Assembly (NCBI RefSeq): GCF_000270285.1
Contig: NC_015738.1
Span: 2,356,001-2,420,000, forward strand
Reading direction: 5' to 3'
Source: Eggerthella sp. YY7918
Lineage (GTDB): Bacteria; Actinomycetota; Coriobacteriia; Coriobacteriales; Eggerthellaceae
Length of the DNA stretch: 64,000 nucleotides
Part shown: positions 25,263 to 42,898 of the stretch, one piece after another
How positions within the stretch are numbered: the stretch's first letter is position 1
Layout: each line of letters begins with the position of its first letter
Notes under the pieces: generated by a model
Database searches by the model: none
Told to the model about the DNA's origin: nothing
What the model saw: the letters and a program-made list of their open reading frames with translations, nothing else
Position numbers and translations under genes: made by a program

Positions 25263-25278
25263 TGTTTCACGTGAAACA
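25263..25278. promoter_or_regulatory. parS: parS site 1 (ParB binding)
   Basis: Exact match to the 16-bp palindrome TGTTTCACGTGAAACA, the near-universal ParB/Spo0J binding sequence. It lies in the gap between the NifX-like gene and the PadR gene, with an extra A/T flanking pair that keeps it palindromic over 18 bp. Confidence 0.9.
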
Positions 25279-25326
25279 TTTGTGCCTCATCAGGCTGAAC
25301 GCGCACCATCTGTTGCCGAACTAGAG

Positions 25327-25342
25327 TGTTTCACGTGAAACA
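25327..25342. promoter_or_regulatory. parS: parS site 2 (ParB binding)
   Basis: Exact TGTTTCACGTGAAACA, 64 bp (centre to centre) from site 1 and just past the 3' end of the PadR gene. The pair could bind neighbouring ParB dimers. Confidence 0.9.
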
Positions 25343-25360
25343 TTCCGAGAAGCCTGCGCT

Positions 25361-25786
25361 CTAACAAGGACCATCCCCCGCTTTGCCAAGTTCTTCAAGG
25401 CCGCCTTCCAGCAATTCGACCAGCAAGGTGTCGAGCCGACGACGCGCCCGCAGGGTATCGAGCCACTGTTCCGCAAGCTCCACGCCCTGCTGGGTGAGTT
25501 CGTACTCGCGCCGTCGCGGCCCCGTCTCGTCGTCGCACCAGCGCGAAACAACGGCGCCCTCTTCTTCAAGCCTGCGCAACGACCGGTACAAACCCCCGAC
25601 GTCGACGTCGATTTCGCCTTCAGTTCGCTCAAGGATGGTTTTCCGCATGTCGTAGCCATAGCCGCCCGCATACAGAAGCGCCGCGAGCGCCGCCGGCTCC
25701 ACAAGAGCGCCCCCTCCACCGCCACGTCTACGACAGCACGGCTTGCGCATATCGGAGAGCGCCTTATCGCATTCGCCATTCGGCAT
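25361..25786 (-). CDS. PadR-family transcriptional regulator
   Basis: 141 residues from ATG 25786 (MPNGECDKAL), behind AGAGAGG; an upstream ATG adds 15 weakly supported residues. A Cys/Arg/Gly-rich N-terminus (DMRKPCCRRRGGGGG) precedes a PadR winged helix: LAALLYAGGYGYDMRKTI, DVGGLYRSLRRLEEEGAV, then the wing PRRREYELTQQG. The dimerisation helices end ELLEGGLEELG. It is transcribed toward the NifX-like gene and may control it. The Cys pair near the start could bind a metal or sense redox state. Upstream AT-rich DNA contains ATATG/CATAT repeats, a possible operator. Confidence 0.88.
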   Translation of the reverse strand: MPNGECDKALSDMRKPCCRRRGGGGGALVEPAALAALLYAGGYGYDMRKTILERTEGEIDVDVGGLYRSLRRLEEEGAVVSRWCDDETGPRRREYELTQQGVELAEQWLDTLRARRRLDTLLVELLEGGLEELGKAGDGPC

Positions 25787-25918
25787 GAGCGAGACCTCTC
25801 TTCCTTCTGTTCCCGTAGCTTCATCCAACACTTATATGCTGATAACATATATACTCCTTGAACATGTATGTTGTCAACATATAAGAATGTTTTTAGTTTT
25901 CCCCTGATAGCGAACGAA

Positions 25919-25934
25919 TGTTTCACGTGAAACA
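25919..25934. promoter_or_regulatory. parS: parS site 3 (ParB binding)
   Basis: Exact TGTTTCACGTGAAACA between the PadR promoter region and the katA terminator. Confidence 0.9.
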
Positions 25935-25960
25935 TTCGAACCCAAAAGGGGTACGAAAAA

Positions 25961-25988
25961 GGCGGCTTTCCTCGACCGGAAAGCCGCC
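25961..25988 (-). terminator. Intrinsic terminator of katA
   Basis: Perfect 11-bp GC-rich arms (GGCGGCTTTCC at 25961-25971 and GGAAAGCCGCC at 25978-25988), loop of 6 nt, then T5 on the minus strand. It is 40 nt past the catalase stop. Confidence 0.92.
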
Positions 25989-26028
25989 CTGTGTTTGAGC
26001 GGTGCGAGTTTTGCGAAGCGTTCGGCCG

Positions 26029-27585
26029 TTATGCGCGAACCTCGCCACCCTTCTTGCGAGCGGGAACCTGCTGGCCGGTGGCAGCCATGCGCTCCTCGTG
26101 CGTCATCGCGGCGAGCTCCTGCACGCGGGCCACGTCCACACCGAGCGCCTCGGCCAGACGCGTGCCGTACTCGACGTCAGCCTTGTAGCAGTGGGCTGCG
26201 TGGCGCAGGCGAATGTTCTCCGTGACGCCTTCCATGTTGCGCATGGTGTTGCCGATAAGGGCGGCACGCTGCGGCTCCTCCATCAGGCGGTACAGGTCAC
26301 CCGGCTGGTAGAACGTGTCATCGGTGGGGTCGTCGGCCGGATCCCACGCATCCATGGGGCCGAACAGATCCAGCGGCGGCTCAGCCGCGTCAGCCTGCTG
26401 CTGCCACTGGCCGTAGCTGTTCGGCTCATAGCCGATGGTGCCGCCGAAGTTGCCGTCGGTACGCATCATGCCGTCGCGATGGAACTCGGCGTAGGGGCAG
26501 CGCGGACGGTTGACCGGAATGTGATTGTGGTTCACGCCCAGGCGGTAGCGCTGCGCGTCGCCGTACGCGAACAGGCGTCCCTGCAGCAGCTTGTCGGGCG
26601 ACAGGCCGATGCCCGGCACCAGGTGTGTCGGCGCGAACGCGGCCTGCTCCACCTCGGCGAAGTAGTTCTCGGGGTTGCGGTTCAACTCAAGCACGCCCAC
26701 CTCGATAAGCGGGAACTCCTTATGGCTCCACGTTTTCGTGATGTCGAACGGGTTCTCCTTGCAGTTCTTGGCCGTGGCCTCGTCCATCACCTGGATGGAG
26801 AACGTCCAACGCGGGTACTCGCCGCGCTCGATGGCCTCGAACAGGTCGCGCTGATGGCTCTCACGATCGCCCGCGATAATCTGAGCGGCTTCCTCGTCCG
26901 TGAGATTCTTGATGCCCTGCTGGGTCTTCAGGTGGAACTTCACCCACACGCGCTCGTTGTTCTCATTGATGAGGCTGTACGTGTGACTGCCGAAGCCATG
27001 CATGTGGCGGTAGCTGGCCGGGATGCCGCGATCGGACATGACGATGGTCACCTGGTGCAGCGCCTCGGGCAGGCTGCTCCAGAAGTCCCAGTTGCTCTGG
27101 GCGGAGTGCATGTTGGTTTTCGGATCGCGTTTCACCACATGGTTGAGGTCGATGAACTTCTTCGGGTCGCGCAGGAAGAACACAGGCGTGTTGTTGCCCA
27201 CCAGGTCCCAGTTGCCCTCGGGCGTGTAGAATTTCATGGCGAAGCCGCGGATGTCGCGCTCGGCGTCGGCCGCGCCGCGCTCGCCCGCCACCGTGGAGAA
27301 GCGCACGAACACGTCGGTCTGCGCGCCAGGCTGGAACACGGCGGCCTTCGTGTACTGGGAAATGTCGCCGGTCACCGTGAAGGTGCCGTACGCGCCCGAG
27401 CCCTTCGCGTGCATGCGTCGCTCGGGAATGACCTCGCGGTCGAAGTGCGCGAGCTTCTCGATCATCCAGTTGTCCTGGAGCATCATCGGGCCGCGCTCGC
27501 CGGCCGTGAGTGTGTGGTTGTTGTCGGCGACGGGCGCGCCGTTCTCGCTATACAGTTTCGTGGTGTCGATATGCTGGTCAGTCAT
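26029..27585 (-). CDS. katA: Haem catalase (monofunctional)
   Basis: 518 residues, small-subunit clade length. The distal haem side has His59 in RRMHAKG and the Asn pair of [11 protein letters not shown] (131-132). The proximal haem ligand is Tyr341 in [14 protein letters not shown]. It has the catalase core ([24 protein letters not shown]) and a C-terminal helical domain. It disproportionates hydrogen peroxide in the cytosol. ATG 27585 lies behind AAGGGG. Monocistronic, with a long upstream region holding an inverted-repeat element. Confidence 0.97.
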
Positions 27586-27729
27586 AGGTAGACCCCTTCT
27601 CGTAAGCCGCCATCGCGCCTCTCGCGAACGGCATGTAGATCATGGATCTATCCTACGTCCTTCTAAAACAAAAATCTATCCTTATTGATATTAATTCTTA
27701 ATAAGATCACATAGGGCCTGCCTCGCCCT

Positions 27730-27879
27730 GGCCCCAAATCGGGGGCTGTGGCAATTTTGAAAAGACTTGAGCAACCGAAAACTAATCGACGCAGCCAAAA
27801 CCCCTGGTCGCAATTTTCACAGCAACGGAATGATTCAATTTGACGAGACAGAAATTGCCACAGCCCCCGATTTGGGACC
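27730..27879. repeat. MITE-like element with 28-bp terminal inverted repeats
   Basis: Arms at 27730-27757 and 27852-27879 are complementary over 28 bp with one mismatch; the inner 25 bp are perfect (CCCAAATCGGGGGCTGTGGC at the left outer side). The 94-nt interior carries no ORF. The arms flank the katA upstream region (146 nt from the start) and lie downstream of leuB. No target-site duplication was evident. It could be a miniature element or a long stem-loop in the 3' region of leuB mRNA. Confidence 0.75.
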
Positions 27880-27977
27880 AAAAGGTTCAGCTCTGGACGG
27901 ATGCAAAGCAGCCATTGTTGGCACTGATTGAGAAATAAGGGAATCTGTATACGGGGCGATATAAGCGTTCATACAAA

Positions 27978-28012
27978 AATCCCTCCCCCAGCGTTGAGCT
28001 GCGAGAGGGATT
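27978..28012 (-). terminator. Intrinsic terminator of leuCDB
   Basis: Arms AATCCCTC (27978-27985) and GAGGGATT (28005-28012) with a 19-nt loop, then TTTTTGTAT on the minus strand. It begins 17 nt after the leuB stop. Confidence 0.85.
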
Positions 28013-28029
28013 AAAAAGACAAGCGGACT

Positions 28030-29139
28030 CTACAGGTGCGACACCACGAGGTCGCCCATCGCCACGGTACCCACCAGTTTGTCGGCAGGAGTGTCGGCGT
28101 TTTTGATGTCGCCGGTGCGCCAGCCTTCATCCAGAACGGCGGTCACGGCGCGGCGGATGTCGTCGGCAGCATCCTGCATATCGAAGCTGTAGCGCAGCAT
28201 CATCTCAACCGACAGGATTTGAGCGAGCGGGTTGGCAATGCCCTGCCCTGCGATGTCGGGAGCGCTGCCGTGGCTGGGTTCGTAAAGGGCCACCCCGTCG
28301 CCGAGACTTGCGCTGGCGAGCATCCCGAGCGAACCCGTGATCTGGGCCGCTTCATCTGACAGGATGTCGCCGAACATGTTCTCGGTCACCACAACGTCGA
28401 AGTCGGCCGGACGGCTGATGAGCTGCATGGCCGTGTTGTCCACAAGCAGGTCCTCAAGCTCCACGTCCGCATATTCCTCATCATGGATGCGGTGCACAAT
28501 TTCACGCCACATGCGGCTGGTCTCGAGCACGTTCGCCTTATCGACACTCGTCACCTTGTTACGACGCTTTCGCGCCACTTCGAACGCCTGACGCGCGATG
28601 CGCTCCACCTCGTACTCGCGATACTCAAGTGTATCGTAGGCGCGCTGGCCCGCAGAGCCACCCGCACCGCAGCCCTCTTCATCGTAGAAACGCTCGCGTA
28701 GACCGAAGTAGAGACCACCCGTCAGCTCACGGACGATCATCATATCCACACCATCTACGATCTCCGGCTTCAACGTGGATGCGTCGGCCAACGCGTTGAA
28801 AATCTGTACAGGACGCAGGTTTGTATACAGGCCGAGCGCCTTGCGGATACCAAGCAGTCCCTGTTCGGGACGCGGTTTCGCCGGATTGGTCGTGTCCCAC
28901 TTCGGACCGCCGACAGCGGCCAGCAGCACGGCATCGGATGCGTTCGCAGCCTCCAGCGTGGCATCCGGCAGCGCCGTGCCCTCCGCATCGATAGCGCAGC
29001 CGCCGATGAGCGCCTCGGTGTAGTCGAAGGTCGTATCGTACTTCGCGCCCACCGCGTCGAGCACCTTCACGCCCTCGGCGATGATCTCCGGCCCAATCCC
29101 GTCACCGGGCAGGAGGCAGATGTGGTAGGTTTGCGTCAT
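28030..29139 (-). CDS. leuB: 3-isopropylmalate dehydrogenase
   Basis: 369 residues. Start motif LLPGDGIGPEIIAEGV, then the substrate/Mg loop region and ENMFGDILSDEAAQITGSLGMLASASLG, with GSAPDIAGQGIANPLAQILS near the C-terminus. This is the NAD-dependent oxidative decarboxylase of leucine synthesis. It is 2 nt downstream of leuD, so leuC-leuD-leuB form one operon. Start ATG 29139 lies behind AAGGAGTAGTC. Confidence 0.97.
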   Translation of the reverse strand: MTQTYHICLLPGDGIGPEIIAEGVKVLDAVGAKYDTTFDYTEALIGGCAIDAEGTALPDATLEAANASDAVLLAAVGGPKWDTTNPAKPRPEQGLLGIRKALGLYTNLRPVQIFNALADASTLKPEIVDGVDMMIVRELTGGLYFGLRERFYDEEGCGAGGSAGQRAYDTLEYREYEVERIARQAFEVARKRRNKVTSVDKANVLETSRMWREIVHRIHDEEYADVELEDLLVDNTAMQLISRPADFDVVVTENMFGDILSDEAAQITGSLGMLASASLGDGVALYEPSHGSAPDIAGQGIANPLAQILSVEMMLRYSFDMQDAADDIRRAVTAVLDEGWRTGDIKNADTPADKLVGTVAMGDLVVSHL

Positions 29140-29141
29140 GA

Positions 29142-29639
29142 CTACTCCTTGCCAAGCTTCTCGCGCGTGCGGTTAATCAACCCGCCGGCTTCGATGATCT
29201 CGCGAATGAACGGGGGAAACGGCTGGGCTTGGAAGGTCTGGCCGGTCGTCTCATCCACAATCACGCCTGCGTCGGCATCCACGCTCACCACGTCGCCGGC
29301 CGAGATGGCGTCCACGGCCTCCGGGCACTCCATGATGGCGAGACCGGTGTTGATGGAGTTGCGGTAGAAGATGCGCGCAAAGCTCTTGGCAATAACCACA
29401 TCCACGCCCGCCGCCTTGATGGCGATGGGTGCATGCTCACGCGAGCTTCCGCAGCCGAAGTTCTCGTCGGCCACGATGATGTCGCCCGGCTGAACCTTTT
29501 GCACAAACGTCGTATCCAGATCCTCCAGGCAATGTTTGGCCAGCTCAGCCGGATCAGACGTGGTCAGGTAGCGAGCCGGAATGATAACGTCGGTATCGAT
29601 GTCGCGCCCGTAACGGTGCGCGGTTCCCTTGAATTTCAT
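29142..29639 (-). CDS. leuD: 3-isopropylmalate dehydratase small subunit
   Basis: 165 residues, the short type found with leuC of about 420 residues. [25 protein letters not shown] at the start, then [39 protein letters not shown], the swivelling-domain signature. It forms the LeuCD heterodimer that isomerises 2- to 3-isopropylmalate. It is followed after 2 nt by leuB. Confidence 0.96.
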
Positions 29640-29661
29640 TCAGTATCCTTTCCCAAAGGGG

Positions 29662-29774
29662 TTTTCGTGGCGAGTGCAGGTGGGATGAAGGTTCCGGAGG
29701 GCTGAACTCAGCGGCCTTTGTGCCGTGTGCGAAGTCCTCCGGGTTCTGAACCCCACCTGTGCCGCCACGGAAAG
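29662..29774 (-). repeat. Long imperfect stem-loop between leuC and leuD
   Basis: In the 137-nt gap, an outer arm GTGGCGAGTGCAGGTGGG (29667-29684) pairs with CCCCACCTGTGCCGCCAC (29751-29768), further extended by TTTTC/GGAAA. An inner CCGGAGG (near 29694-29700) pairs with CCTCCGG (near 29737-29743). The gap is unusually large for this otherwise tight operon. Confidence 0.6.
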
Positions 29775-29776
29775 CC

Positions 29777-31045
29777 CTAATCCAAATCTTCCGGCAGGCC
29801 AATATGACCGAGTACCGCACTCGCGGCGGCGACGGCCGGCGAGGACAGGTAGACCTCGCTCGTCGGATCACCCATGCGGCCGACGAAGTTGCGGTTCGTC
29901 GTCGCAATGGCGCGCTCGCCCGCAGCCAGAATGCCCATGTAGCCGCCCAGGCACGGCCCGCACGTGGGCGTGGACACGGCGCAGTTCGCGTCCAAGAACA
30001 CGTCCATCAGGCCTTCCTCCATGCACTGGCGATACACCTGCTGCGTGGCGGGAATCACAATGCAGCGCACGTCGGGGTGAATCTTGCGACCGCGCAGCAC
30101 CTCGGCCGCCTGGCGCATGTCGGCGATGCGACCGTTCGTGCACGAACCGATAACCGCCTGGTCAATCTTCACGTCGCGCGCCTCGGCTGCCGGACGCGTG
30201 TTCGACGGCAGATGCGGGAACGCCACGGTCGGCTGAATGCTGGCCGCATCGATCTCGTACACCTTCGCGTACACGGCATCCGGGTCGGAATGGTACTCGG
30301 TGTAGGGACGCTCCACACGACCGTCCATGTAGGCGCGCGTCACGTCGTCCACCTCGATAAGACCAGCCTTGCCGCCCGCCTCGATGGCCATGTTGGAAAT
30401 CGACATACGCTCGTCCATGTCCATGTTCTTGATGGCGCTGCCGGTGAACTCCATGGCCTGATACAGCGCGCCGTCCACACCAATCATGCCAATGATATGC
30501 AGGATGACGTCTTTGCCGGTCACGCCCGGCGCCAGCTCGCCTTCAATCTTGAACAGCAAAGACTCGGGCACCTTGAACCACGCCTTGCCGGTGGCGTATC
30601 CCACGCCGGCATCGGTGGAGCCTACGCCCGTAGCGAATGCGCCCAGCGCACCGTAGGTGCACGTGTGGCTGTCCGCGCCGATGATGAGGTCGCCCGCGCC
30701 CACAACACCCTGCTCGGGCAGCAGTGCATGCTCAACGCCCATGCAACCCACCTCGTAGTAGTGGGTGATGCCCTGCTCGCGTGCGAAATCGCGTACGATC
30801 TTGGCCTGTTCGGCGCTCTTGATGTCCTTGTTCGGCACATAGTGGTCGGGCACCAGCGCGATCTTCGTCGGGTCGAACACCTTTTCAACGCCAATCTTGC
30901 GGAACTCTTTGACGGCGATGGGGGCGGTGACGTCGTTGGAAAGCACGAGGTCAAGATCGCATTCGATCAGCTGACCCGGCTCCACCTCGTCGAGCCCCGC
31001 ATGGGCGGCGAGAATCTTCTCCGCCATAGTCATGGGACGTGGCAT
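29777..31045 (-). CDS. leuC: 3-isopropylmalate dehydratase large subunit
   Basis: 422 residues from ATG 31045 ([17 protein letters not shown]), behind AAGGAGCAACT; the longer reading adds 17 unsupported codons. This is the short-type (homoaconitase-like) LeuC. The [4Fe-4S] cluster ligands are in [17 protein letters not shown] and [13 protein letters not shown]. It binds the substrate with the small subunit encoded downstream. First gene of leuCDB. Confidence 0.96.
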
Positions 31046-31110
31046 AGTTGCTCCTTGGTTTACGGTGGTCGTGCGAACCCGCGCGAGCGCGAGCATAGAA
31101 AACGCTCATC

Positions 31111-31116
31111 ATTGTA
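31111..31116 (-). promoter_or_regulatory. Candidate -10 box for leuCDB
   Basis: TACAAT on the minus strand, 66 nt upstream of leuC, preceded at 16 nt by a poor -35 (TTTTGT). I see no leader peptide or T-box in this short leader. Confidence 0.4.
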
Positions 31117-31140
31117 GCACTCACGCGTGTGCACAAAAGA

Positions 31141-31162
31141 GAAGGACCCCGAAGGGCCCTTC
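31141..31162 (-). terminator. Intrinsic terminator of the Pro-rich membrane protein gene
   Basis: Arms GAAGGACCC (31141-31149) and GGGCCCTTC (31154-31162) with a CGAA loop and one A-C mismatch. TCTTTTGT follows on the minus strand. It is 80 nt past the stop. Confidence 0.7.
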
Positions 31163-31241
31163 GATATGAAACGATTCTACAGAATTATGGCGCAAGCGGA
31201 CAGCATCTTGTCTCCCAAGGCCTTCCGCCCAGTACGTCAGC

Positions 31242-31787
31242 CTACCAAGCTCCGTAGTAGTCATGGCCGTAGTAGCCCATCGAACCCATAGCGCCGGAAA
31301 TTGCCGCGGTAACCATGCCAGCAAACAGCAAACCCAAAAGGAAGCCGAGCACGATCCAAATGACAAAACCGATAACCGCAAACTTGAGCGCGTCGCTTTT
31401 CACCTGGGGCATCTTGTCAACGTTCACAAGCCACGCAATGATGATGCCCGGAATGCCCATAAGCGCGCCAATGACAACCCACGCGAACTTCATGCCGCCG
31501 GTCAGCTGCATGAGCGGTGCTGGCGGATACACCGGCTGCGGTGCGCCATACAGGGGCGGCTGCTGCACAGGCATTTGTCCCATAGGCGGCTGCTGAGGGG
31601 GTATCGGCTGTCCCATCGGGGGCTGATGCGGCGGCATCTGACTCTGCGGCGAAAACGGCTGTGCCGGTTCGGGAGGAGTCGGCCCACTTGCCGGAGGACG
31701 CGGAGCCACAGGCTGCGCGGGAGCCGGATCGGGCGCAGACTGGGGTTCGGGCGTGCCGGGAACGCTGTTGTTTGTCTCGTCGCTCAT
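31242..31787 (-). CDS. Proline-rich membrane protein of unknown function
   Basis: 181 residues. A Pro/Gln-rich N-terminal half (about 1-90, with repeated QPP, PPM and MGQ) precedes two membrane segments (about 98-120 and 138-165) and a Gly/Tyr tail (GYYGHDYYGAW). It resembles small Coriobacterial and actinobacterial proteins with a disordered Pro-rich tail and two TMs. SD region AGGAAAGCAGG before ATG 31787. Function unknown. Confidence 0.75.
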   Translation of the reverse strand: MSDETNNSVPGTPEPQSAPDPAPAQPVAPRPPASGPTPPEPAQPFSPQSQMPPHQPPMGQPIPPQQPPMGQMPVQQPPLYGAPQPVYPPAPLMQLTGGMKFAWVVIGALMGIPGIIIAWLVNVDKMPQVKSDALKFAVIGFVIWIVLGFLLGLLFAGMVTAAISGAMGSMGYYGHDYYGAW

Positions 31788-32012
31788 AACGCACCTGCTT
31801 TCCTGTCGTATCTATGTCCATTCGCGAAGCACCCTGCGCGACGCGAAAGAACGTATGGCTGCGGTTCAACCGCTTGTGCTGCCAGTATAAAGCCCGCGGG
31901 GAACGTGTTGCAGTATCGTCATCGAATCGAAACGCAAATACATCATCTGATGTAGGAAAATATGATACGTTTGGTGCAAAAACTGCGATCAAGTGCCAAA
32001 TACGTTAACGCG

Positions 32013-32906
32013 CTACGAAAGGGCTGTACATAACGCATCGAGAAGCGTGATGGCAAAGTGCTGCGCTGAACGACCCTCGCCCGCGTCCTCCCACATCGTA
32101 CCCGGTAATTCGACCGCAATACGCGAAGGTGCTGCGCTATCAGCCACACCGATAGCCGTCTCCAAACGAAGAGACAGCGTGCTCTCGTCTTCAAAACTCA
32201 CACGCGGCATGCCTGTAGTGTGCTCATCGGGCAAAACAATATGCACCAGCAGCATCTGTTTGTCGGGCGCCACTAGAAGCGAATCCGCACTCATAATTTT
32301 GGAAGCCGGATTGGTGGCCAGCGCAAGATTCGACATACGCGAGGCAACGCTACGCGTAAAACTCTGCGTTCCGAACAGGCAGAGCGCATTGCGTTCCAGC
32401 ACGTCGGCGGCGCGCGCAAAGCCAAGATGGTTCGACCCGTGTACCGCTTCCTTGCCTTCCCATGAATGGTGAAGATTGCGAATGGCGGCATAGGTATACG
32501 CGCCCGCAATGCCGTCGGAGGGCAGCCCGAGGTTCATCTGGAATTTGCGCAGGGCAAGTTCGGTGAATGCGCCGAATATGCCGTCGGTGGCGCCGCAGGC
32601 AAAACCAAGCGCCCCTAACGCGTGCTGCAATTCAACCACGTCGTGCCCATGGAAATGCGGCATACGCAGGTAGAGCGTACGATCGCCCAAACGGAATGAC
32701 GCGTCGACCAGCGCCGTCCACACCTTTTCGTCTACCTCGTCAGAAACGGGCAGATTCGCCTGTTTGCAGAACGCGCGCACGGCCTCACCGGTCGTGTCGC
32801 CAAACACGCCGTCAACTTCAGAAGAATCGAGCAGTCCAATGGTCGCAAGGCGTTGCTGCACGTCTTCGACCGCTGGACCTTTGTCATGTCGTTTAATGGT
32901 TTCCAT
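32013..32906 (-). CDS. Peptidoglycan-binding-domain protein
   Basis: 297 residues from ATG 32906 (METIKRHDKGPAVEDVQ). Two tandem PG_binding_1 modules (about 5-60 and 85-140): GPAVEDVQQRLATIGL, VDGVFGDTTGEAVRAF and HDVVELQHALGALGF, TDGIFGAFTELALRKFQ. The C-terminal 150 residues have no obvious catalytic motif. No signal peptide, so export is unclear; the ribosome-binding site is weak. A longer frame adds a Cys-rich tail that is unlikely. Probably binds the cell wall or a wall precursor, without a hydrolase domain I can identify. Confidence 0.8.
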   Translation of the reverse strand: METIKRHDKGPAVEDVQQRLATIGLLDSSEVDGVFGDTTGEAVRAFCKQANLPVSDEVDEKVWTALVDASFRLGDRTLYLRMPHFHGHDVVELQHALGALGFACGATDGIFGAFTELALRKFQMNLGLPSDGIAGAYTYAAIRNLHHSWEGKEAVHGSNHLGFARAADVLERNALCLFGTQSFTRSVASRMSNLALATNPASKIMSADSLLVAPDKQMLLVHIVLPDEHTTGMPRVSFEDESTLSLRLETAIGVADSAAPSRIAVELPGTMWEDAGEGRSAQHFAITLLDALCTALS

Positions 32907-33053
32907 GCAGGTCATAGTACCGCAGGCGAAACACCCATGCACACCGACCCGACCGGTTTCACCAAAGCAACAGAGGGCCGACATTTTGCCGTTTCGCTAT
33001 ACCCGGGTGCGCCGATGTCCCCTACCTCTGGCGGTATCAAAACAGATCGGCAG

Positions 33054-34103: not shown

Positions 34104-34239
34104 AGCGCTTTCTTGATCGGGCCTGACAGCTTGTCGGTTCGACATGGTATCACAAGAATCGTCAACGAATTCAAAGCGCGCTCCTAGCGGCTTGTTTTTT
34201 CGTTTTTATTGCATAGGGGGCGTGAAACTACGTGGAAGT

Positions 34240-34512: not shown

Positions 34513-34543
34513 ATGCGTTGCGCCGCTCTACATGAGCGAGCCT

Positions 34544-35545: not shown

Positions 35546-35553
35546 GATGTCTC

Positions 35554-36675
35554 CTATTCGACGCCGAACACCACGTCAAGGAACGGCGAATACCAGGTTT
35601 CGGGAGCCTTTACGCTGCCGGACACCACATTGGCGCGAAACGCAGGGTTGTCCCGCTCCGTTGCTTCAAGACCGACAACCTTCGCCGTTTGCTCGCCTTT
35701 TTTTACCCATCCCAGCTGATCACGAGCCTGGTTTTCTATGCCAGGAGCCGTTTGCAACGCGTTGACGTCTCCTTCGATGGCGCTGTTGCGCTCAACGAGG
35801 GCCGCATACTCCGCAGCCAGACGGTCGCGCTCCCTCAGCGCTTGATAATATTGCTGGGCGGTCGGATACAAAAACAAGCACGACAGCGCGAGACAGGCTG
35901 CCACGATACAGCTTGCAACCATCTTGGGACGCCTCGTGCGTGGCTCGGAAGAGGCGGCGCCAGTCGCTCGCTTGCTCTTGGTTTGCGAAGACGTTGTTTG
36001 CATGCGCGTCGCTTTGCGCTGTTTCGCTCCCATTTCGCCTTTGTAGACCGCAGCTCGCGGACCGGCCTGAGAGGGATCGGCGGACGGCTCGGTGCCGGCA
36101 AACTGTTTTTCAAACGCGCGCTCGGCCTTGCTCTTTGCGCGGGCACGCTTGGCCTGCTTCAACGCTTCAAAGCGCGAGGATCGCTTGGGGGCTTCTTCCC
36201 TCTGTTCGTCGAACTCGTCGAACTGCTCAGCATCCTCAAATGCAGCTGATGTGCGCGCAAAGGAATTCGAAATGGCCGCGCGCCGCGTTGAACCATATCG
36301 CCCAGTATTTGCGGAGGACGTACTCTGAACGACAGGACTTGCAACGTTGAGAGGCGTCACTCCGCGTCGCGGCGCTGCAAAGGCGCCGGACGTGTTGAGA
36401 CGGCTGGAACTGCGTGAAAACGCGTCGTCTAGCGCTGCCCCGCCGCGATACGGCGACGCATACCGGCGCGATGATGAGGACGGGCGCAGAGAGGCGTCGT
36501 TAGGTGCGGAAGCGAACGACGAATTCGTTGATGAACGACGCGAGAATTGAGAACTCCCGCCGCTTGGCCTTCCTGCCGCGTTTGCAGCAGATGGCCGACG
36601 TGCAGGCGCAGAAGAACGTGCGCGGTTACCGCGCTTTACCTCGTCGAACGAGAGAATATTCGCCTGCCTAGCCAA
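35554..36675 (-). CDS. FtsB/DivIC-like septum formation protein with long disordered N-terminus
   Basis: 373 residues. The first 245 are Ser/Arg/Ala-rich and probably disordered. A single membrane helix (about 250-272) is followed by a short coiled coil (ALRERDRLAAEYAALVERNSAIEGDVN) and a C-terminal tail. This is the DivIC/FtsB layout. The family is normally near 100 residues, so the N-terminal extension is striking; Coriobacteria and mycobacteria have similar extended forms. It helps recruit FtsL/FtsQ at the division site. Start ATG 36675. Confidence 0.85.
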   Translation of the reverse strand: MARQANILSFDEVKRGNRARSSAPARRPSAANAAGRPSGGSSQFSRRSSTNSSFASAPNDASLRPSSSSRRYASPYRGGAALDDAFSRSSSRLNTSGAFAAPRRGVTPLNVASPVVQSTSSANTGRYGSTRRAAISNSFARTSAAFEDAEQFDEFDEQREEAPKRSSRFEALKQAKRARAKSKAERAFEKQFAGTEPSADPSQAGPRAAVYKGEMGAKQRKATRMQTTSSQTKSKRATGAASSEPRTRRPKMVASCIVAACLALSCLFLYPTAQQYYQALRERDRLAAEYAALVERNSAIEGDVNALQTAPGIENQARDQLGWVKKGEQTAKVVGLEATERDNPAFRANVVSGSVKAPETWYSPFLDVVFGVE

Positions 36676-36901
36676 ACGGAAATGCGCTCCTCTTGCATCA
36701 TGGTTCGTTTAAATAGTGTGTTTCAATGCAGAAGCTGAGTGCAGCATACCACACTCTAAAGCTTTCTTCCACCTGCGCAAAACGCGTTCACGTTTTACAA
36801 AACCGCACGTGAAGGCCATAGAAATGCGGGAAAGCGAGCAATTACCTACAAAGGAAGGGATACAGAATTGTCAAAATTAACCGTCAAAGACAATGGCTCG
36901 A

Positions 36902-37282
36902 CTAGAGGTCGAGCTTCTTGATGTAGGTGCGCCATTTCGCGAACGAGTCGTCGCTGATGGCGTGCTCCATAAGGCACGCCTCATGTTCGGCCTGCTCTTC
37001 GGGGATGCCGACCGCCTTCGTGAGGAAGGTGAACAGGAGATGATGGCGATCCAGAACCGAGGTACCGTAAGCGTAACCATCGGAGGTAAGGGTAATATCA
37101 CCGTAGAAGGGCTGGTCAACTAAGCCTTTTTCCTTCAAAGCAGACACGGCCTTGTTCACCGAAGCTTTCGATACGCCCAGCTTGGTGGCAATATCAACCG
37201 AACGGACAGGCACGTCGGTTGTGCCGCCCAGCATTACGATGGCTTCAAGATAATCCTCATGCGACATGGACATCTTTTCCAC
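36902..37282 (-). CDS. DtxR/MntR-family metal-dependent regulator
   Basis: 126 residues from GTG 37282, behind GAGGAGG at 5 nt. An upstream start adds 12 codons without support. HTH MSHEDYLEAIVMLGG ... RSVDIATKLGVSKASVNKAVSALKEKGLV, then the metal-binding and dimerisation helices (HHLLFTFLTKAVGI, HEACLMEHAISDDS). There is no C-terminal SH3 domain, as in MntR. It lies at the downstream end of the feo region and may control it, but a terminator and its own promoter region separate them. Confidence 0.9.
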   Translation of the reverse strand: MEKMSMSHEDYLEAIVMLGGTTDVPVRSVDIATKLGVSKASVNKAVSALKEKGLVDQPFYGDITLTSDGYAYGTSVLDRHHLLFTFLTKAVGIPEEQAEHEACLMEHAISDDSFAKWRTYIKKLDL

Positions 37283-37339
37283 GGCTGCCTCCTCATGATC
37301 TTGCACACATAGTATCACAGGGTGCTAGAAAAAGAGAGA

Positions 37340-37374
37340 GCCAGCGAGGGGAAGGGGGGATGCCCCTCGCTGGC
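37340..37374 (-). terminator. Hairpin ending the feo transcript
   Basis: Perfect 12-bp GC-rich arms (GCCAGCGAGGGG and its complement) around an 11-nt loop, followed on the minus strand by CTCTCTTTTTCT. It probably separates the feo transcript from the regulator gene. Confidence 0.75.
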
Positions 37375-37477
37375 ATACAATGTGATGGATGACCAGACGA
37401 GAGGAGTCTCCACCACCGGGTAAGTGAGCATCAGCTAGGAGGATGAGGTGTGCCTCGTGCTGCTGATATTGTTAGTA

Positions 37478-37489
37478 TAGGTTAACTTA
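37478..37489. promoter_or_regulatory. Candidate metal-regulator operator A
   Basis: TAGGTTAACTTA, a near-palindrome centred on GTTAAC, resembling half-site pairs of DtxR/IdeR operators (TTAGGTTAGSCTAACCTAA). Confidence 0.35.
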
Positions 37490-37641
37490 CGCATGTCGTC
37501 AATCGAAGTTTACCTTGGTTTACAATTCCTTCATATCTCTGGCTGCTTGTGTCGATTTTACGTGCGCGGGGCGTGACGCGCAGCGAGATGGCGGCTCGTT
37601 GAGCCCGAGCATTTCATGCGTCGATCCTGTGGGTGGTGCGC

Positions 37642-37780
37642 GATGCGTGGTGCGTGGCGCACGCCCCGCAGGTGCAACACCTTCTACCAGCAGTATTGGT
37701 CATCTTATGGCACGTGATGCGTGGTGCGTGGTGCACGCAACACAGGTGCACCTACTCTACCAGCAGCGTTAGTCAGCTTA
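37642..37780. repeat. Imperfect 74-nt-period direct duplication
   Basis: GATGCGTGGTGCGTGG starts at 37642 and again at 37716. The following 50 nt (CAGGTGCA..., CTACCAGCAG...) align with about 80 percent identity over both copies. Nothing codes here except the C-terminal tail of the Cys-rich protein at the far end. Confidence 0.65.
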
Positions 37781-38039
37781 GCGGGCGGCCATCGTCCGTC
37801 TGAGTATCGTTTGGCTGATCGAAGCTGGTCAAAGGGATAGCGCAACTCGCGCAAGCCGCGCAACTGCTGCAACCGCTGCAACCGGCGCTCTCTTGCGCAT
37901 GCGCGCCCTTGCCGCGCGGCGAACCTTTATGGCAGTCGCACGTGCCATTACGATGCAGACGACGCGCGGCAAGAAACACGAGTACGACGAGCGCAAGGGC
38001 AACGATGATCGTTGCCGGCGAGAATTCCATAGACAACAT
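37773..38039 (-). CDS. FeoB-associated Cys-rich membrane protein
   Basis: 88 residues. One membrane helix (about 9-25), then CDCHKG and a Cys-rich motif CSGCSSCAACASC. This is the small FeoB-associated Cys-rich family (PF12669) often encoded after feoB. The cysteines could bind iron or form a redox switch. Start ATG 38039 behind AGAAGGCGG. It is separated from feoB by 332 nt that hold repeats and a parS site. Confidence 0.85.
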   Translation of the reverse strand: MLSMEFSPATIIVALALVVLVFLAARRLHRNGTCDCHKGSPRGKGAHAQESAGCSGCSSCAACASCAIPLTSFDQPNDTQTDDGRPLS

Positions 38040-38119
38040 GAGCCGCCTTCTTTCTATATCTTTCGCGAAAACCGGTCGCCCTGTTCAACGATCTCGCAAA
38101 ACCAGGCGCTCGGCAAGCT

Positions 38120-38249
38120 GGGTTTTGCCGCACTTACAACGTACGCTGTCACTCGGCACGTTGGGGTTTACCGCACTTGCAACGTTCACTGTCACTCGGC
38201 ACGTTGGGGTTTACCGCACTTGCAACGTACGCTGTCGCTCGGCACATTG
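38120..38249. repeat. Three 43-44-bp tandem repeats next to parS site 4
   Basis: Units at 38120-38163, 38164-38206 and 38207-38249 begin GGGTTT(T/A)CCGCACTT and end TCGGCAC(G/A)TTG, with only a few differences. They lie between feoB and the Cys-rich gene and stop 26 nt before a parS palindrome. No ORF. Confidence 0.85.
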
Positions 38250-38275
38250 CGCTGCACACGCAGATATCGTACGAA

Positions 38276-38291
38276 TGTTTCACGTGAAACA
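38276..38291. promoter_or_regulatory. parS: parS site 4 (ParB binding)
   Basis: Exact TGTTTCACGTGAAACA, downstream of feoB and next to the tandem repeats. Confidence 0.9.
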
Positions 38292-38371
38292 TTCGTTTCG
38301 GAAAGCGCCGAGCAAACCGCACGAAGCATTCGCTTCAAAAACACTTAGCCGAGCGACTGGCCGAACAAACC

Positions 38372-40732
38372 TTACGCCGCCGAAGACTCGAGGATCTTTC
38401 GTTTCCCTCCGCCTTCGCCCACACGTGTATCGTACTTGGGCATGGGACGGAACAGCTGAAACAGCATGCCCGCCAACACCACAACAGCCACACCGCTCCA
38501 CAGCGTGAAGGGGCCGCCCGCAAGCAGCAAGCCGAACTGGTAGATCATAAGCGCCACAGCCCAAGCGAACACGGTCATGTAGCCGATGGCGAACCAGGTC
38601 CACTTCGCCGACGCCATCTGGCGACGAATGGTGCCGATAGCGGCAAAGCACGGCGCACACAGCAGGTTAAAGGCGCAAAACGCGGCGATGGCCGGAACAG
38701 AGCCGCCCAGCATTGCAGCGAACGCAGTCCACATGGTCGGATCGGTCTCCCCCACATCTCCTGCCGCCGTCAGTACACCGACAGTTGCCACCACGTTCTC
38801 TTTTGCTACGAGTCCCGTGATAGACGTGACCGCGCTTTCCCAATTGCCGAAACCCAGCGGTGCGAATATCCAAGCGATAGCGCTCCCCAGTCCCGCCATC
38901 AGACTGTAGTCCATGTAACCTTCCATTTCGGTATCAAGCAGGCCGAACTGCCCCTCATAGAAACCGAACCCTTGCAAGAACCAGATGACGATGGCGCTCA
39001 GGAAGATAATGGTACCGGCCTTCACGATGAAGCTGCGAACGCGTTCCCACGTAGCCATGAGAACGTTTTTGACCGCGGGCACATGGTAGGCTGGCAGCTC
39101 CATGATGAAGGGCGTGGCCTCGCCGGCGAACATCTTCGTCTTGCGCAGCATAATGCCCGAGATAATGATGGCCGCCACGCCCAGGAAATAGAACATCGGA
39201 GCAATCCACCAGGTGGTGTCCGCATTGCCGCCAGCGATAGCGCCGAACACGAGCGCGATGATGGGCAGCTTTGCGCCGCAGGGAATCATCGTTGTGGTGA
39301 TGATGGTCATGCGGCGGTCTTTCTCGTTCTCGATGGTTTTCGTGGCCATGACGGCGGGCACGCCGCAGCCGGATGCAATAAGCATGGGAATAAAGCTTTT
39401 ACCCGATAGGCCGAATTTGCGGAAGATGCGGTCCATGATGAAGGCCACACGCGCCATGTAGCCGCACGCCTCGAGGATGGACAGCAGTAAGAAAAGCACG
39501 ATCATTTGCGGGACAAACCCAAGAACGGCGCCCACACCTGCGATAATGCCGTCAACCACCAGGCTTACAAGCCAGGGGGCCGTGCCTGCGGACTCAAGCG
39601 CGTCGGTGACAACCGGAGTAAGGCCAGGTACCCACACACCAAATGCAGCCGGGTCGGGTTCTTCTTCGGCGAGGGTCGCCAGTTCGGCTTCGGTGGCACC
39701 CGCTTCCTCGGCAGCAGCCACGGTTTCTTCCCATGCGCCGACCGCTTCGTCGTATTGTTCGGTGCCGGTATATAGCCAGCCGTCGCCGAACACGCCGTCG
39801 TTGGCCCAGTCGGTGAACAGCGTGCCTATTGTCGACACCGAAAGGTAATACACCAGCGTCATAACCACAATGAAGATGGGAATACCGAGCCAACGGTTCG
39901 TAACCACGCGGTCGATCTTTTGCGTGGCGGTGGTGCCGCGCATCGAACGCTTCACGCAAGCGTCCACCACATGCGCAAGAGCATTGTAGCGCTCGCCCGT
40001 GACGATGCTTTCCGCGTCGTCGTCCAGACGCTCTTCCAACCCTTCGCGCACCTTAGCAATGGCCTTGAGGTCGGAAGTCGGCAGGCTAAGCGCGTCGATG
40101 GTCTTTTGCTCGCCTTCGAGCAGCTTTGTGGCATACCAACGCACAACGTGCGGCTTCACGCGTGTGCCCAAAATGTCCGCGATGGCGGCAAGCGCCTCCT
40201 CCACCACAGCGTCGAAGCGCAAATCGGGCGCAGCAGGTGTGCGCATTTGCGCTGCCTCGACGGCAGTTTGCAGCAGCTCGTCCATGCCGCGTCCTTTGAG
40301 CGCCGAAACCTCTACCACCGGACAACCCAGGTGCTGTGAGAGCTTCCTCGCGTCGATACGATCGCCGTTTTTCTGAACGAGATCCATCATGTTGAGCGCC
40401 ACCACTACCGGAAGTCCCAGGTCAAGAATTTGGGTCGTCAGGTAGAGGTTGCGCTCAAGATTCGTGGCATCCACGAGGTTGATGACCGCGTCGGGACGCT
40501 CGTTCAGCAAATAGTCGCGCGTGACCATTTCTTCGGGCGAATACGGAGAAAGCGAGTACACGCCCGGCAGATCGGTGATGGTCACATCCTTGTTGCGCGT
40601 GCAGGTGCCCTCTTTCTTTTCGACCGTCACCCCGGGCCAGTTTCCTACGTACTGGTTTGCTCCGGTCCAGTCGTTGAACAGTGTTGTCTTGCCGCAGTTC
40701 GGGTTGCCGGCAAGCGCTATGCGAAATCCCAT
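38372..40732 (-). CDS. feoB: Ferrous iron transport GTPase/permease FeoB
   Basis: 786 residues. N-terminal G domain: P-loop GNPNCGKT (9-16), G2 TVEKKEG, G3 DLPGVYSL and G4 NMMD. A GDI-like helical domain follows, then the membrane core with Gate motifs (about residues 280-750), including FIPMLIASGCGVPAVMATKT. Imports Fe(II). The first gene of its transcript here; the two feoA genes lie about 0.9 kb upstream on the same strand. Start ATG 40732 with AAGAAAGGGAC before it. Confidence 0.97.
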   Translation of the reverse strand: MGFRIALAGNPNCGKTTLFNDWTGANQYVGNWPGVTVEKKEGTCTRNKDVTITDLPGVYSLSPYSPEEMVTRDYLLNERPDAVINLVDATNLERNLYLTTQILDLGLPVVVALNMMDLVQKNGDRIDARKLSQHLGCPVVEVSALKGRGMDELLQTAVEAAQMRTPAAPDLRFDAVVEEALAAIADILGTRVKPHVVRWYATKLLEGEQKTIDALSLPTSDLKAIAKVREGLEERLDDDAESIVTGERYNALAHVVDACVKRSMRGTTATQKIDRVVTNRWLGIPIFIVVMTLVYYLSVSTIGTLFTDWANDGVFGDGWLYTGTEQYDEAVGAWEETVAAAEEAGATEAELATLAEEEPDPAAFGVWVPGLTPVVTDALESAGTAPWLVSLVVDGIIAGVGAVLGFVPQMIVLFLLLSILEACGYMARVAFIMDRIFRKFGLSGKSFIPMLIASGCGVPAVMATKTIENEKDRRMTIITTTMIPCGAKLPIIALVFGAIAGGNADTTWWIAPMFYFLGVAAIIISGIMLRKTKMFAGEATPFIMELPAYHVPAVKNVLMATWERVRSFIVKAGTIIFLSAIVIWFLQGFGFYEGQFGLLDTEMEGYMDYSLMAGLGSAIAWIFAPLGFGNWESAVTSITGLVAKENVVATVGVLTAAGDVGETDPTMWTAFAAMLGGSVPAIAAFCAFNLLCAPCFAAIGTIRRQMASAKWTWFAIGYMTVFAWAVALMIYQFGLLLAGGPFTLWSGVAVVVLAGMLFQLFRPMPKYDTRVGEGGGKRKILESSAA

Positions 40733-40811
40733 AGTGTCCCTTTCTTCTTCATCGTATCCATGTCGTCGTATCCGTGCGTTTGTGTGCGTCAGTAGAATCG
40801 TACGTTTCCAA

Positions 40812-40832
40812 AAGTTAACTGTGACTAACTAT
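40812..40832. promoter_or_regulatory. Candidate metal-regulator operator B, upstream of feoB
   Basis: AAGTTAACTGTGACTAACTAT holds AGTTA and TAACT arms, 80 nt upstream of feoB. It shares GTTAAC with the sites at 37,478 and 42,563. A DtxR/MntR-like protein could bind it. Confidence 0.35.
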
Positions 40833-41173
40833 GTGCCATTAAAAATGCCCATTTAGGGCAACGCATGCGAAACCTCACAGTCGAGATCAGCGCTTTTCGC
40901 TCTCGCTTCGCAGCTTAGTCCAGTTGCAGACGGCAGAGGCGTGCGGCCTGGAGTTCGTTCGATCAGCGCTGAATGGTGCCTTTGCGATGAACCGCACCGA
41001 AGTTAGCATTTGCAGTCTCGCCTCGCAGCTCGTGGCTCGGAGTTCGTTCGGGTCATCACTGACGTTTCGGGCGTACATACGAAAACTGCCGCCTCGTGTT
41101 GTCAATCGTCGCCAGCGTCATCCGTCACCACCAAGCATCACAAACCAACATTAATTGCCGCCATTGCGCAAAA

Positions 41174-41189
41174 TGTTTCACGTGAAACA
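41174..41189. promoter_or_regulatory. parS: parS site 5 (ParB binding)
   Basis: Exact TGTTTCACGTGAAACA, in the long gap between feoA and feoB. Confidence 0.9.
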
Positions 41190-41361
41190 TTCGTTCGTAA
41201 ACTGTTCGCGAATCTGCCTCATTCAACAACTCATTTCACCATCCCAGTTCCAATGCAGCCAACTTAATTCATCCTCCCAGCACTCGCACAACCGCTCCCT
41301 TCACCTCAATTCCTTCATGGCCAACATAGCCAAGAATTTGAGAAACCGATGCTTTGCGTGA

Positions 41362-41377
41362 TGTTTCACGTGAAACA
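41362..41377. promoter_or_regulatory. parS: parS site 6 (ParB binding)
   Basis: Exact TGTTTCACGTGAAACA, 188 bp from site 5; both are followed by TTCGTTCG. Confidence 0.9.
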
Positions 41378-41514
41378 TTCGTTCGTGTAGCTTCTTTCAT
41401 GCGTCGACTAGTTTCGCCGGTCGTCGGGCTGGCAAACAAGAACCGCATAGCGTCAGCCGCCGGTCATCTGCGATCGAGAAGCTAGCGGGAGGCTAGCGGG
41501 AGGCCCGCAGAAAA

Positions 41515-41605
41515 GCCGAGCTGGAAGCCTATTAAGAAGTCGAGTTGCAGGCCTGCCGAGAAGCGAGTTGGAGCCTACTGGCAAGCCGAGTTGCGGGTTT
41601 ACGAA
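41515..41605. repeat. Degenerate 21-24-nt tandem repeat at the 3' end of feoA
   Basis: Units starting at 41515, 41539, 41563 and 41585 share G(C/T)CGAG(C/T)TG(G/C)A(A/G)GCCT with spacing 24, 24 and 22. A GCTAGCGGGAG pair lies just before. The last unit runs over the feoA stop codon. Confidence 0.6.
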
Positions 41606-41835
41606 ACAAGGATGTTTTCGGCTTCGTTTTTGCGAAGTGAGAGTTCATAGCCACGAACGGTTACCTCAAGGGGGTCGCCGAGCGGGGCAACCTTGCGAAC
41701 AAAAATGTCGGTCCCTTTCGTGATGCCCATATCCATGATGTGACGCTTGAGCGCGCCTTCGCCCGTTAAACGACGCACTTTCGCCGTGTCGCCGATGCGT
41801 ACATCGCGCAGTGTTCGGTTCTGATCTTCTGCCAT
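41599..41835 (-). CDS. feoA: FeoA-domain protein
   Basis: 78 residues from ATG 41835 (MAEDQNRTLRDVRIG); a longer frame adds 36 residues through a parS site and is not real. SH3-like FeoA fold: RDVRIGDTAKVRRLTGEGALKRHIMDMGITKGTDIFV, then VTVRGYELSLRKNEAENILV. It interacts with or modulates FeoB. It lies between the second FeoA gene and the long parS-bearing gap. Confidence 0.92.
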   Translation of the reverse strand: MAEDQNRTLRDVRIGDTAKVRRLTGEGALKRHIMDMGITKGTDIFVRKVAPLGDPLEVTVRGYELSLRKNEAENILVS

Positions 41836-41926
41836 ACCCTGTTTCCTTTCCCTATTCATGCAGTTCATTCGCTTACTTGATGGTGAGCACACACAAACCC
41901 GCATAATGTCCAAAAGACTGGTTAAA

Positions 41927-41942
41927 TGTTTCATGTGAAACA
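41927..41942. promoter_or_regulatory. parS: parS site 7, one mismatch
   Basis: TGTTTCATGTGAAACA differs from the consensus only at position 8 (C to T). It lies in the gap between the two feoA genes. Confidence 0.7.
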
Positions 41943-42105
41943 TTTGTTCGCGAATTCGGAAGGCCTCGCAACTCCCAACTCAGCGCCGAAAAGATTCAGA
42001 AGGTTGCAGGTGCCAGACGCGTGCAGCTTAGAATCCGCTCGGTTCAACGTTCAAAGATGCAGAAGGCTGCAAGCCGAACGGACTCAGCGGGTCGAACCGT
42101 CGAAA

Positions 42106-42504
42106 CTAGGCCGATAGGTTCGCCATAATGCGAGCGGCTACCTGACGATCGAGCGCGACCTGCGTACCCTTCACTTCCACGATCAAATCGCCCGCAGCCT
42201 CGGAGAGCACTGCAACCTGCACACCCTCGACAAAACCGAGCGTCTCCAGATGATGATGCACGTCTCCGCGTCCGTGTACCTTCACAATTGTGGCCACCTC
42301 TCCGCTTTTTAGAAACGAAAGCGGTATTTCGCCGCGGGATCCTTCGGAAGCCGTAGACGATGCTGCCGCTTCCACCGACAGACGTGCCGATGCGAGCGGC
42401 ACACCCATTGGATTTACGGGTCCGGACGAAGAGGCCGTTGTTTTTGCCCGTCGCATCATGCTATGCCTGCCTGCAACTGCCACGTTATCCATTGCTGCTC
42501 CCAT
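42106..42504 (-). CDS. FeoA-domain protein with N-terminal extension
   Basis: 132 residues from ATG 42504, behind GAGG; an ATG 12 nt on is an alternative. About 55 residues of Ser/Ala-rich sequence precede the FeoA fold (SGEVATIVKVHGRGDVHHHLETLGFVEGVQVAVLSEAAGDLIVEVKGTQVALDRQVAARI). A single FeoA domain is usually about 75 residues. First gene of the feo transcript. The HHH in the domain could bind metal. Confidence 0.85.
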   Translation of the reverse strand: MGAAMDNVAVAGRHSMMRRAKTTASSSGPVNPMGVPLASARLSVEAAASSTASEGSRGEIPLSFLKSGEVATIVKVHGRGDVHHHLETLGFVEGVQVAVLSEAAGDLIVEVKGTQVALDRQVAARIMANLSA

Positions 42505-42562
42505 CAAGTTAGCCTCGTATAACAAAAAGTATCATACGGTAAACTTTTCCAAAATGGAAGCC

Positions 42563-42574
42563 TTGGTTAACAAT
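42563..42574. promoter_or_regulatory. Candidate metal-regulator operator C, upstream of feoA
   Basis: TTGGTTAACAAT, almost a perfect palindrome on GTTAAC, 60 nt upstream of the first feoA start. Confidence 0.4.
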
Positions 42575-42692
42575 TTTTTACACAAGCGCAGCTCAGACGA
42601 TACTTGAGCCCACGCTAACAAGTAGTCGGGATAGCAGAATGGTTTGGATACGGCATGATGGCCAAGATATGGCAGATAGCTGGGATGTTGAG

Positions 42693-42708
42693 TGTTTCAC
42701 GTGAAACA
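42693..42708. promoter_or_regulatory. parS: parS site 8 (ParB binding)
   Basis: Exact TGTTTCACGTGAAACA in the divergent gap between feoA and thrC. Confidence 0.9.
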
Positions 42709-42853: not shown

Positions 42854-42898
42854 GAGATCGGATAATCTCGTTAGGAAATCGAACAGAAAGCGCAGGAC

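Follow-up and report, generated by a model that had tools for sequence, protein, structure and literature searches.

Chromosomal parS sites, the palindromes bound by the partition protein ParB, are described as a feature of the origin region. A review puts their number at up to 20–23 near the origin (PMC7333895), and a further account places the vast majority of them within the 20% of the chromosome around the replication origin oriC (PMC7022226). A Hi-C study of 12 gut species, which applied the same consensus with two mismatches, gives one to ten parS sites (PMC10197239), and scattered parS sites are described as limited to a few lineages including Bacilli (PMC8357415, citing Livny 2007). 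In this study, eight parS sites were analysed in a 64,000-nucleotide stretch (the window, bases 2356001–2420000) of the chromosome of Eggerthella sp. YY7918, a single contig of 3,123,671 bp. One paper gives this name as an alias of sp000270285, which it lists with E. rubneri as the two GTDB species of Enteroscipio (PMC8898433). With a probability of about 0.57, the eight sites belong, as two mid-arm groups, to a genuine parS set along both chromosome arms, which one lineage of Eggerthellaceae would have built up and which would load ParB, and probably condensin, arm-wide. The sites match the ParB consensus, are mostly intergenic and clustered, and are densest at the origin yet reach far down both arms.

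The 16-bp parS sequence TGTTTCACGTGAAACA occurs exactly at seven positions in a scan of the whole window and with one mismatch (TGTTTCATGTGAAACA) at position 41927; no further match with up to three mismatches was found within the 64 kb. The initial annotation, which was made from the letters of the window, had listed these eight copies as a ParB/Spo0J-type palindrome and had called chance copies negligible. The scan confirmed all eight, dinucleotide shuffles (n = 100) gave a mean of 0.23 and a maximum of 2 matches with at most three mismatches, and the sites match the parS of a ParB encoded in the genome. The same annotation had drawn them as one cluster of 17.4 kb. The eight sites are present, but as two groups 12.3 kb apart, with three sites at 25.26–25.93 kb and five at 38.28–42.71 kb, and not as one even cluster. 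All eight are intergenic according to our own gene caller. Five surround feoB and two feoA genes, with thrC adjoining, in agreement with the earlier placement of most sites in the feo region, and the other three flank the gene of a PadR-type regulator, whose neighbours are a NifX-like gene and a catalase gene.

The position of the window on the chromosome was derived from gene order and GC skew. The contig opens with dnaA at base 1, after which come dnaN, recF, gyrB and gyrA, and the opposite end carries yidC- and jag-type genes, an rsmG-like frame, parA, parB and rlmN (all names recognised from the translations). All 19 stretches sampled between base 1 and 1.41 Mb have a positive GC skew. Of the 22 sampled from 1.61 Mb onwards, 21 have a negative one, the exception being a value of +0.012 at 3.03 Mb. 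A further 20 stretches place the sign change, and with it the terminus, at about 1.51–1.535 Mb. Because dnaA lies at base 1, parAB at the other end, and the skew follows this pattern, oriC was assigned to the contig ends. The window sites are 725–742 kb away from it, at 46–48% of the half-chromosome. They are indeed remote from parAB, as had been stated, since the canonical parA-parB pair lies at oriC (3.116–3.118 Mb). The accompanying suggestions that the window is origin-proximal and that its sites are the chromosomal centromere had to be abandoned: dnaA, parAB and the skew sign change rule out an origin-proximal position, and a stronger cluster of 16 exact parS sites surrounds parAB (3113301–3120358). 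A distant oriC together with a stronger cluster elsewhere is an outcome that the initial annotation had itself named as refuting its reading. Location in the origin domain, which the window sites lack, is a usual trait of parS and not one that defines the binding site.

The genome as a whole contains 103 exact parS sites, and 112 when up to two mismatches are allowed. A reversed control pattern gave 0 and 2, and this control and the shuffles rule out chance or base composition as the source of the sites. The DNA stretches that were analysed hold all 103 exact sites, five sites with one mismatch and none with two. The densest zone is the 50 kb next to the origin, with 17 exact sites, and 51 of the 103 lie outside the origin domain of ±10%, which is 20% of the chromosome. 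Beyond 230 kb from the origin there are 54 exact sites, beyond 600 kb 36, beyond 1.0 Mb 19, and beyond 1.4 Mb 7; they occur on both arms, up to about 110 kb from the skew terminus on each side. Four gaps between exact sites exceed 200 kb, and the terminus itself falls in one of these, which measures 206 kb (1409394 to 1615569). When sites no more than 10 kb apart are joined, 37 groups result, whereas 1000 uniform draws gave 74 groups on average and never fewer than 61. An even spread over the genome, which the initial annotation had named as evidence against its reading, is therefore found in part: the sites are spread, but they are clustered and densest at the origin. Among the 108 sites that are exact or have one mismatch, 83 lie outside genes, though 85% of the analysed DNA is coding; these gene calls come from our own hexamer script, so that the 25 sites counted inside genes may include wrong starts.

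The distribution of parS among relatives was examined in 149 genomes of the order, including the source genome, of which 89 are Eggerthellaceae and 60 belong to other families. At least 20 exact sites were found in 21 of the 89 Eggerthellaceae genomes, eight of these with at least 100, and the remaining 68 contain 0–15. The maximum in the other families of the order is 3, and in a phylum sample of 396 genomes none of the 383 outside Eggerthellaceae exceeds 21, a count reached in a genus with sampled genomes of 6–10 Mb. High counts are seen in Eggerthella sinensis (109), Rubneribacter badeniensis (122), Ca. Rubneribacter avistercoris (104), Gordonibacter pamelaeae (78), Gordonibacter An230 (63), Enterorhabdus P55 (126) and Adlercreutzia ZJ176 (47), and low counts in Adlercreutzia hattorii (2), A. 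caecimuris (3), Berryella wangjianweii (3), Slackia exigua (3) and Collinsella provencensis (1). The trait therefore does not track genus names. A genome of 3,632,260 bp that is probably the E. lenta type strain (G069) has 130 exact sites. In this and a second single-contig genome (G004, 108 sites), sites beyond 1.4 Mb number at least 11 (91 of the 130 sites being listed) and at least 21 (100 of the 108 being listed), respectively, with the origin assumed at base 1 in G069 and at parB in G004. Counts of the exact 16-mer may be too low for lineages that use a degenerate parS; the split into high and low counts persists in the 89 genomes with two mismatches allowed, and consensus drift was rejected as the cause of the low counts. 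On a ParB tree the high counts are clustered (3 changes compared with 11.4 after shuffling), and they may have a single origin, as far as a tree with long branches and open forks allows; one row (L114) was dropped, as our script found no ParB there, and L085 is not included.

Positional conservation was assessed by projecting the 48 parS sites of E. rubneri onto the analysed stretches of the source genome by means of flanking alignments. Anchors were obtained for 37 of the 48, and 32 fall within 300 bp of a source-genome site, compared with 22% of random places in the same loci. In the origin cluster, where the density of sites makes matching easy, 13 of 13 sites were matched within this distance with a control value of 59%. 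Outside the origin cluster, 19 of 35 lie within 300 bp (17 distinct partners, as several E. rubneri sites share one partner) versus 21% of random places, and 13 of 35 lie within 60 bp versus 4% in the control. The matched sites include 1615715, 1618302 and 1620425 of the group at 1.615–1.620 Mb, and two sites of the feo region, with offsets of 17 and 252 bp. Flanks of 60 bp were compared for 27 pairs, hand-picked from the 32 matched sites and including one with a one-mismatch core in the source genome (41927). Their median identity is 0.58, compared with 0.55 for unrelated pairs (95th percentile 0.61); 19 of the 27 pairs are inside the range of unrelated pairs and eight above it. The core stays in place while its surroundings mostly lose their resemblance. 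Kept cores with drifted flanks are the pattern expected if the site is under selection or is regained at its old position. Near feoB, 7 of the 19 high-count genomes carry an exact site where 2.0 would be expected (P 0.002), one more has a site with one mismatch, and 0 of 11 low-count genomes have one; the comparison covers 30 genomes of our choice with loci of unequal reach, and the feoB of G057 is a distant paralog.

The same comparison bears on the proposal that the sites spread as part of a small unit, mobile or repeated, and persist by chance without serving a function. Doublets of parS with similar spacers, described below, recur at unrelated places in several genera, and the flank word TTCGTTCG occurs in 16 of 302 flanks where 0.6 are expected. 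Yet outside the core a single matching pair was found in 5778 flank comparisons, exact copies vastly exceed copies with one mismatch, and many places are kept between two species despite drifted flanks, so that spread without function is very unlikely. A mobile repeat was rejected as the carrier, there being no longer shared unit apart from that single pair. A unit of the repetitive extragenic palindrome or bacterial interspersed mosaic element (REP/BIME) type beyond the core is represented by one flank pair in the source genome, but the doublet spacers recur across genera.

The gene context of the sites raises the question whether ParB bound at intergenic parS represses or tunes nearby genes such as feo, catalase or the PadR-type regulator and thereby controls a regulon. 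Most sites are intergenic, effects of ParB on gene expression in Pseudomonas have been reviewed (PMC7022226), and sites recur in the feo region of several genera. However, no preference for promoters is seen. Of the 77 intergenic sites that could be typed, 51 have tandem neighbours, 13 divergent and 13 convergent ones, near the shares of these classes in the intergenic DNA of the same loci (64, 24 and 12%). A regulatory role as the explanation of the site set is accordingly considered improbable. The window sites and adjoining genes are compiled in Table 1. Near the feo genes the window also contains a gene for a DtxR-type iron-dependent repressor (36902–37318), and a tRNA-Leu (TAA) is encoded on the minus strand at 34428–34512.

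Table 1. parS sites and neighbouring genes in the window (window coordinates; PF numbers are domain matches; E. rubneri positions are projections)
Feature	Position	Strand	Remarks
parS, exact 16-mer	25263..25278	.	between NifX-like gene and PadR-type regulator
parS, exact 16-mer	25327..25342	.	18 bp from PadR gene (own caller)
parS, exact, within extended palindrome CGAATGTTTCACGTGAAACATTCG	25919..25934	.	between PadR and catalase genes
parS, exact, within extended palindrome	38276..38291	.	3' of feoB; E. rubneri parS projects 252 bp away
parS, exact	41174..41189	.	between feoB and feoA; right flank TTCGTTCG
parS, exact	41362..41377	.	between feoB and feoA; right flank TTCGTTCG
parS, one mismatch	41927..41942	.	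between two feoA genes; exact E. rubneri site projects 17 bp away
parS, exact	42693..42708	.	between feoA and thrC
NifX-like gene (Nitro_FeMo-Co, PF02579)	24812..25192	-	adjoins parS sites
PadR-type regulator (PF03551)	25361..25831	-	adjoins parS sites
Catalase (PF00199)	26029..27585	-	adjoins parS sites
feoB (PF02421 and others)	38372..40732	-	domain matches
feoA (PF04023)	41599..41868	-	domain match
Second feoA (PF04023)	42106..42408	-	domain match
thrC, threonine synthase (PF14821)	42899..44443	+	domain match

The anatomy of the sites was compared across the genome. The core sits within a weaker extended palindrome of about CRAATGTTTCACGTGAAACATTYG, with a mean palindromic extension of 2.28 compared with 1.41 in shuffled flanks (largest of 500 shuffles 1.78). 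Flanks of the TTCGTTCG type accompany 14 of the 54 distal sites, 5 of the 33 others within 230 kb and none of the 16 sites of the origin cluster. Doublets with starts 34–36 bp apart occur twice in the source genome (1268356/1268390 and 2109909/2109943), once in the E. rubneri genome (G001, locus L165), eight times in G004 (L209–L216) and five times in G069 (L218–L222), and a second class with a distance of 48 bp was found in three of the four genomes examined (L156, L217, L223–L225). The spacers of one doublet class are alike across genera and at unrelated places and often palindromic; 6 of 9 spacers of the 34-bp class are centred on GCGC. The doublet or flank module may bind a second factor, act as a terminator, or be left over from the way in which sites multiply.

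Such palindromes could in principle act as RNA or DNA stem-loops or terminators, the match to parS being secondary. The agreement of left and right flanks beyond shuffles would suit a hairpin, as would the six doublets that fold far better than shuffles as single strands (z −4.05 to −6.37) and the position of some sites, e.g. 101502, within long palindromes. On the other hand, a hairpin does not need identical 16 bases, whereas 103 of 108 sites have an invariant core, centre included. Sites are also found between divergent genes, and of two window sites that were folded one is no better than shuffles (z −0.36) and another moderate (z −2.78). Terminator-like hits in positions 24500–43500 of the window number 18, with 19.4 expected by chance, none of them overlaps parS, and parS shows no bias to gene ends. 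Hairpins or terminators as the primary role of the sites are thus highly improbable. Long perfect palindromes hold a few parS sites (101502, 117162 and 3120358), one of them followed by TTTT, and these would resemble intrinsic terminators.

The ParB encoded at oriC is the candidate binder of the arm-wide sites. It aligns with solved ParB structures, and its N-terminus contains GLGRGL, a ParA-contacting motif. The helix-turn-helix stretch is nearly identical in high- and low-count genomes, and a changed specificity of ParB was rejected: among the 15 most divergent columns only residue 206 lies in the helix-turn-helix (M in 14 of 14 high-count genomes; of 15 low-count genomes, 12 have V and 3 have M). 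Judged from these alignments, the DNA-reading helix of ParB is hardly changed and it is the location of the sites that has changed. The C-terminus (residues 286–342 in P0001) differs by group, with A300 in 14 of 14 high-count and 0 of 15 low-count genomes, and a FEEL motif is present near the tail in all 14 high-count genomes. These C-terminal features are confounded with kinship and may be mere descent. The column comparison comprised 14 high- and 15 low-count genomes; three Collinsella/Atopobium rows and four with intermediate counts were assigned to neither. The equivalents of R173 and G201 (Caulobacter ParB numbering), described as absolutely conserved in ParB, are kept, and at the Noc specificity residues Q173, K179, K184 and R201 the source ParB has R, A, E and G (numbering of PMC7383237).

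These residues are relevant to a Noc-like function, in which ParB on arm-wide sites would keep the division ring off unsegregated DNA, one protein serving both jobs. Noc sites are not known to occur at the terminus, and the thinning of parS away from the origin (19 of the 103 exact sites are more than 1.0 Mb from it, 7 more than 1.4 Mb) and the terminus in its 206-kb gap would be in line with this. Moreover, G004 (one contig) and G024 (a draft with 104 sites) each have one ParB_N gene, and no Noc of that family was seen in these two genomes. However, there are three further gaps longer than 200 kb elsewhere, so that the terminus gap is not special; ParB carries R and G, not the Q and R of Noc, at two specificity positions; and it retains GLGRGL at its N-terminus. 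A Noc-like role is unlikely on balance. For G004 and G024, and for these two only, the single ParB_N gene also led to rejection of a second ParB or a Noc paralog as the binder. ScpB is present in 90 of 90 genomes, 11 of which have at least 20 sites, and loss of condensin was therefore discarded as the reason why the sites are tolerated.

A paralog may still be the binder in genomes with several ParB_N genes, such as the source genome, which has five. Two of the five belong to additional parA-parB pairs, one at 85 kb and one at 3.09 Mb. Each of these pairs lies in one of two site-free stretches that flank the origin (about 10–93 kb and 3018–3113 kb; L022, L023, L028 and L029), and the GC content around the pair at 3.09 Mb is 64%. 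The site-free stretches near the origin look like integrated elements, and newly acquired DNA may accordingly lack parS. In the origin region, the first codons of parA and of the rsmG-like gene (MFHVKH) resemble an in-frame parS (L021:2018-3109, L031:5050-5391), and parA has a second parS-like stretch in frame (VSRETF).

If the sites are a genuine arm-wide parS set, chromosomal ParB would load as cytidine triphosphate (CTP) clamps at about 37 places instead of one. The clamps would slide over neighbouring DNA and recruit Smc-ScpAB along both arms. The outcome would be domains organised by ParB and condensin around the nucleoid, and the dense cluster at oriC would keep ParA-driven segregation. 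Several observations weigh against arm-wide loading. No exact site lies in the 206-kb stretch that holds the skew terminus. Sixteen of the 48 E. rubneri sites are unmatched (11 without an anchor in the analysed loci and five anchored but more than 300 bp off), and with 48 sites against 103 in the source genome many are unshared, which shows that sites turn over. The distal sites, 14 of 54 with the flank module, may be weakly bound or serve otherwise. In Caulobacter, an extra parS cluster is described as acceptable up to about 500 kb away, but further from the native one it lowers fitness, and it is disfavoured most of all at mid-arm (PMC5815017), and in B. subtilis a distant strong parS is reported to cause Smc collisions, scattered parS being called counterproductive from that view (PMC8357415). 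Arm-wide loading thus has a known cost and is surprising.

A more far-reaching form of the arm-wide reading is a distributed centromere. Here the canonical ParB would be a whole-nucleoid organiser acting at dozens of kept places up to about 110 kb from the terminus, partly by way of composite elements, made up of doublets (34–36 or 48 bp, with similar and often palindromic spacers) and a TTCGTTCG-type flank, that would mark distal sites and perhaps recruit a second factor. We advance this tentatively. If true, it would break the permissive-zone rule and constitute a bacterial counterpart of holocentric chromosomes.

Arm-wide parS does not fit the origin-restricted rule derived from other bacteria, and the window sites lie mid-arm, where the extra Caulobacter cluster is reported to be most harmful (PMC5815017). 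A lineage of the human gut that keeps about 100 exact sites must either tolerate arm-wide loading of ParB and condensin or use ParB otherwise. Either outcome bears on questions that the review leaves open, namely why parS numbers vary and what keeps the sites clustered (PMC7333895). Among the papers listed in searches of the open-licence literature, no earlier report of such an arm-wide parS set was seen.

Among known systems, B. subtilis Noc and its binding sites (NBS) are alike in combining a ParB-fold protein with short palindromic sites over the chromosome. However, the sites of the source genome are parS and not NBS, its ParB has parS-type residues, and two high-count genomes possess a single ParB_N gene. 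Pseudomonas resembles the present case in that its ParB is reported to contact hundreds of places distant from the origin (PMC7022226); those are 7-base half sites, which are common in genomes, whereas the sites described here are full, exact 16-bp sequences, many of them kept in place. In contrast to the scattered parS of Bacilli, about a hundred exact sites occupy both arms in a lineage of Actinomycetota that includes E. lenta, described as non-sporulating (PMC3035228). There is also a likeness to the chromosomal ParABS systems of Bacillus, Caulobacter, Corynebacterium and Streptomyces, which have the same 16-bp site, canonical ParA and ParB encoded beside oriC, a dense cluster there, and Smc-ScpAB (ScpB in the source genome's case). 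The source genome differs from these origin-domain systems in its 103 exact sites, of which 51 lie outside the domain and seven beyond 1.4 Mb.

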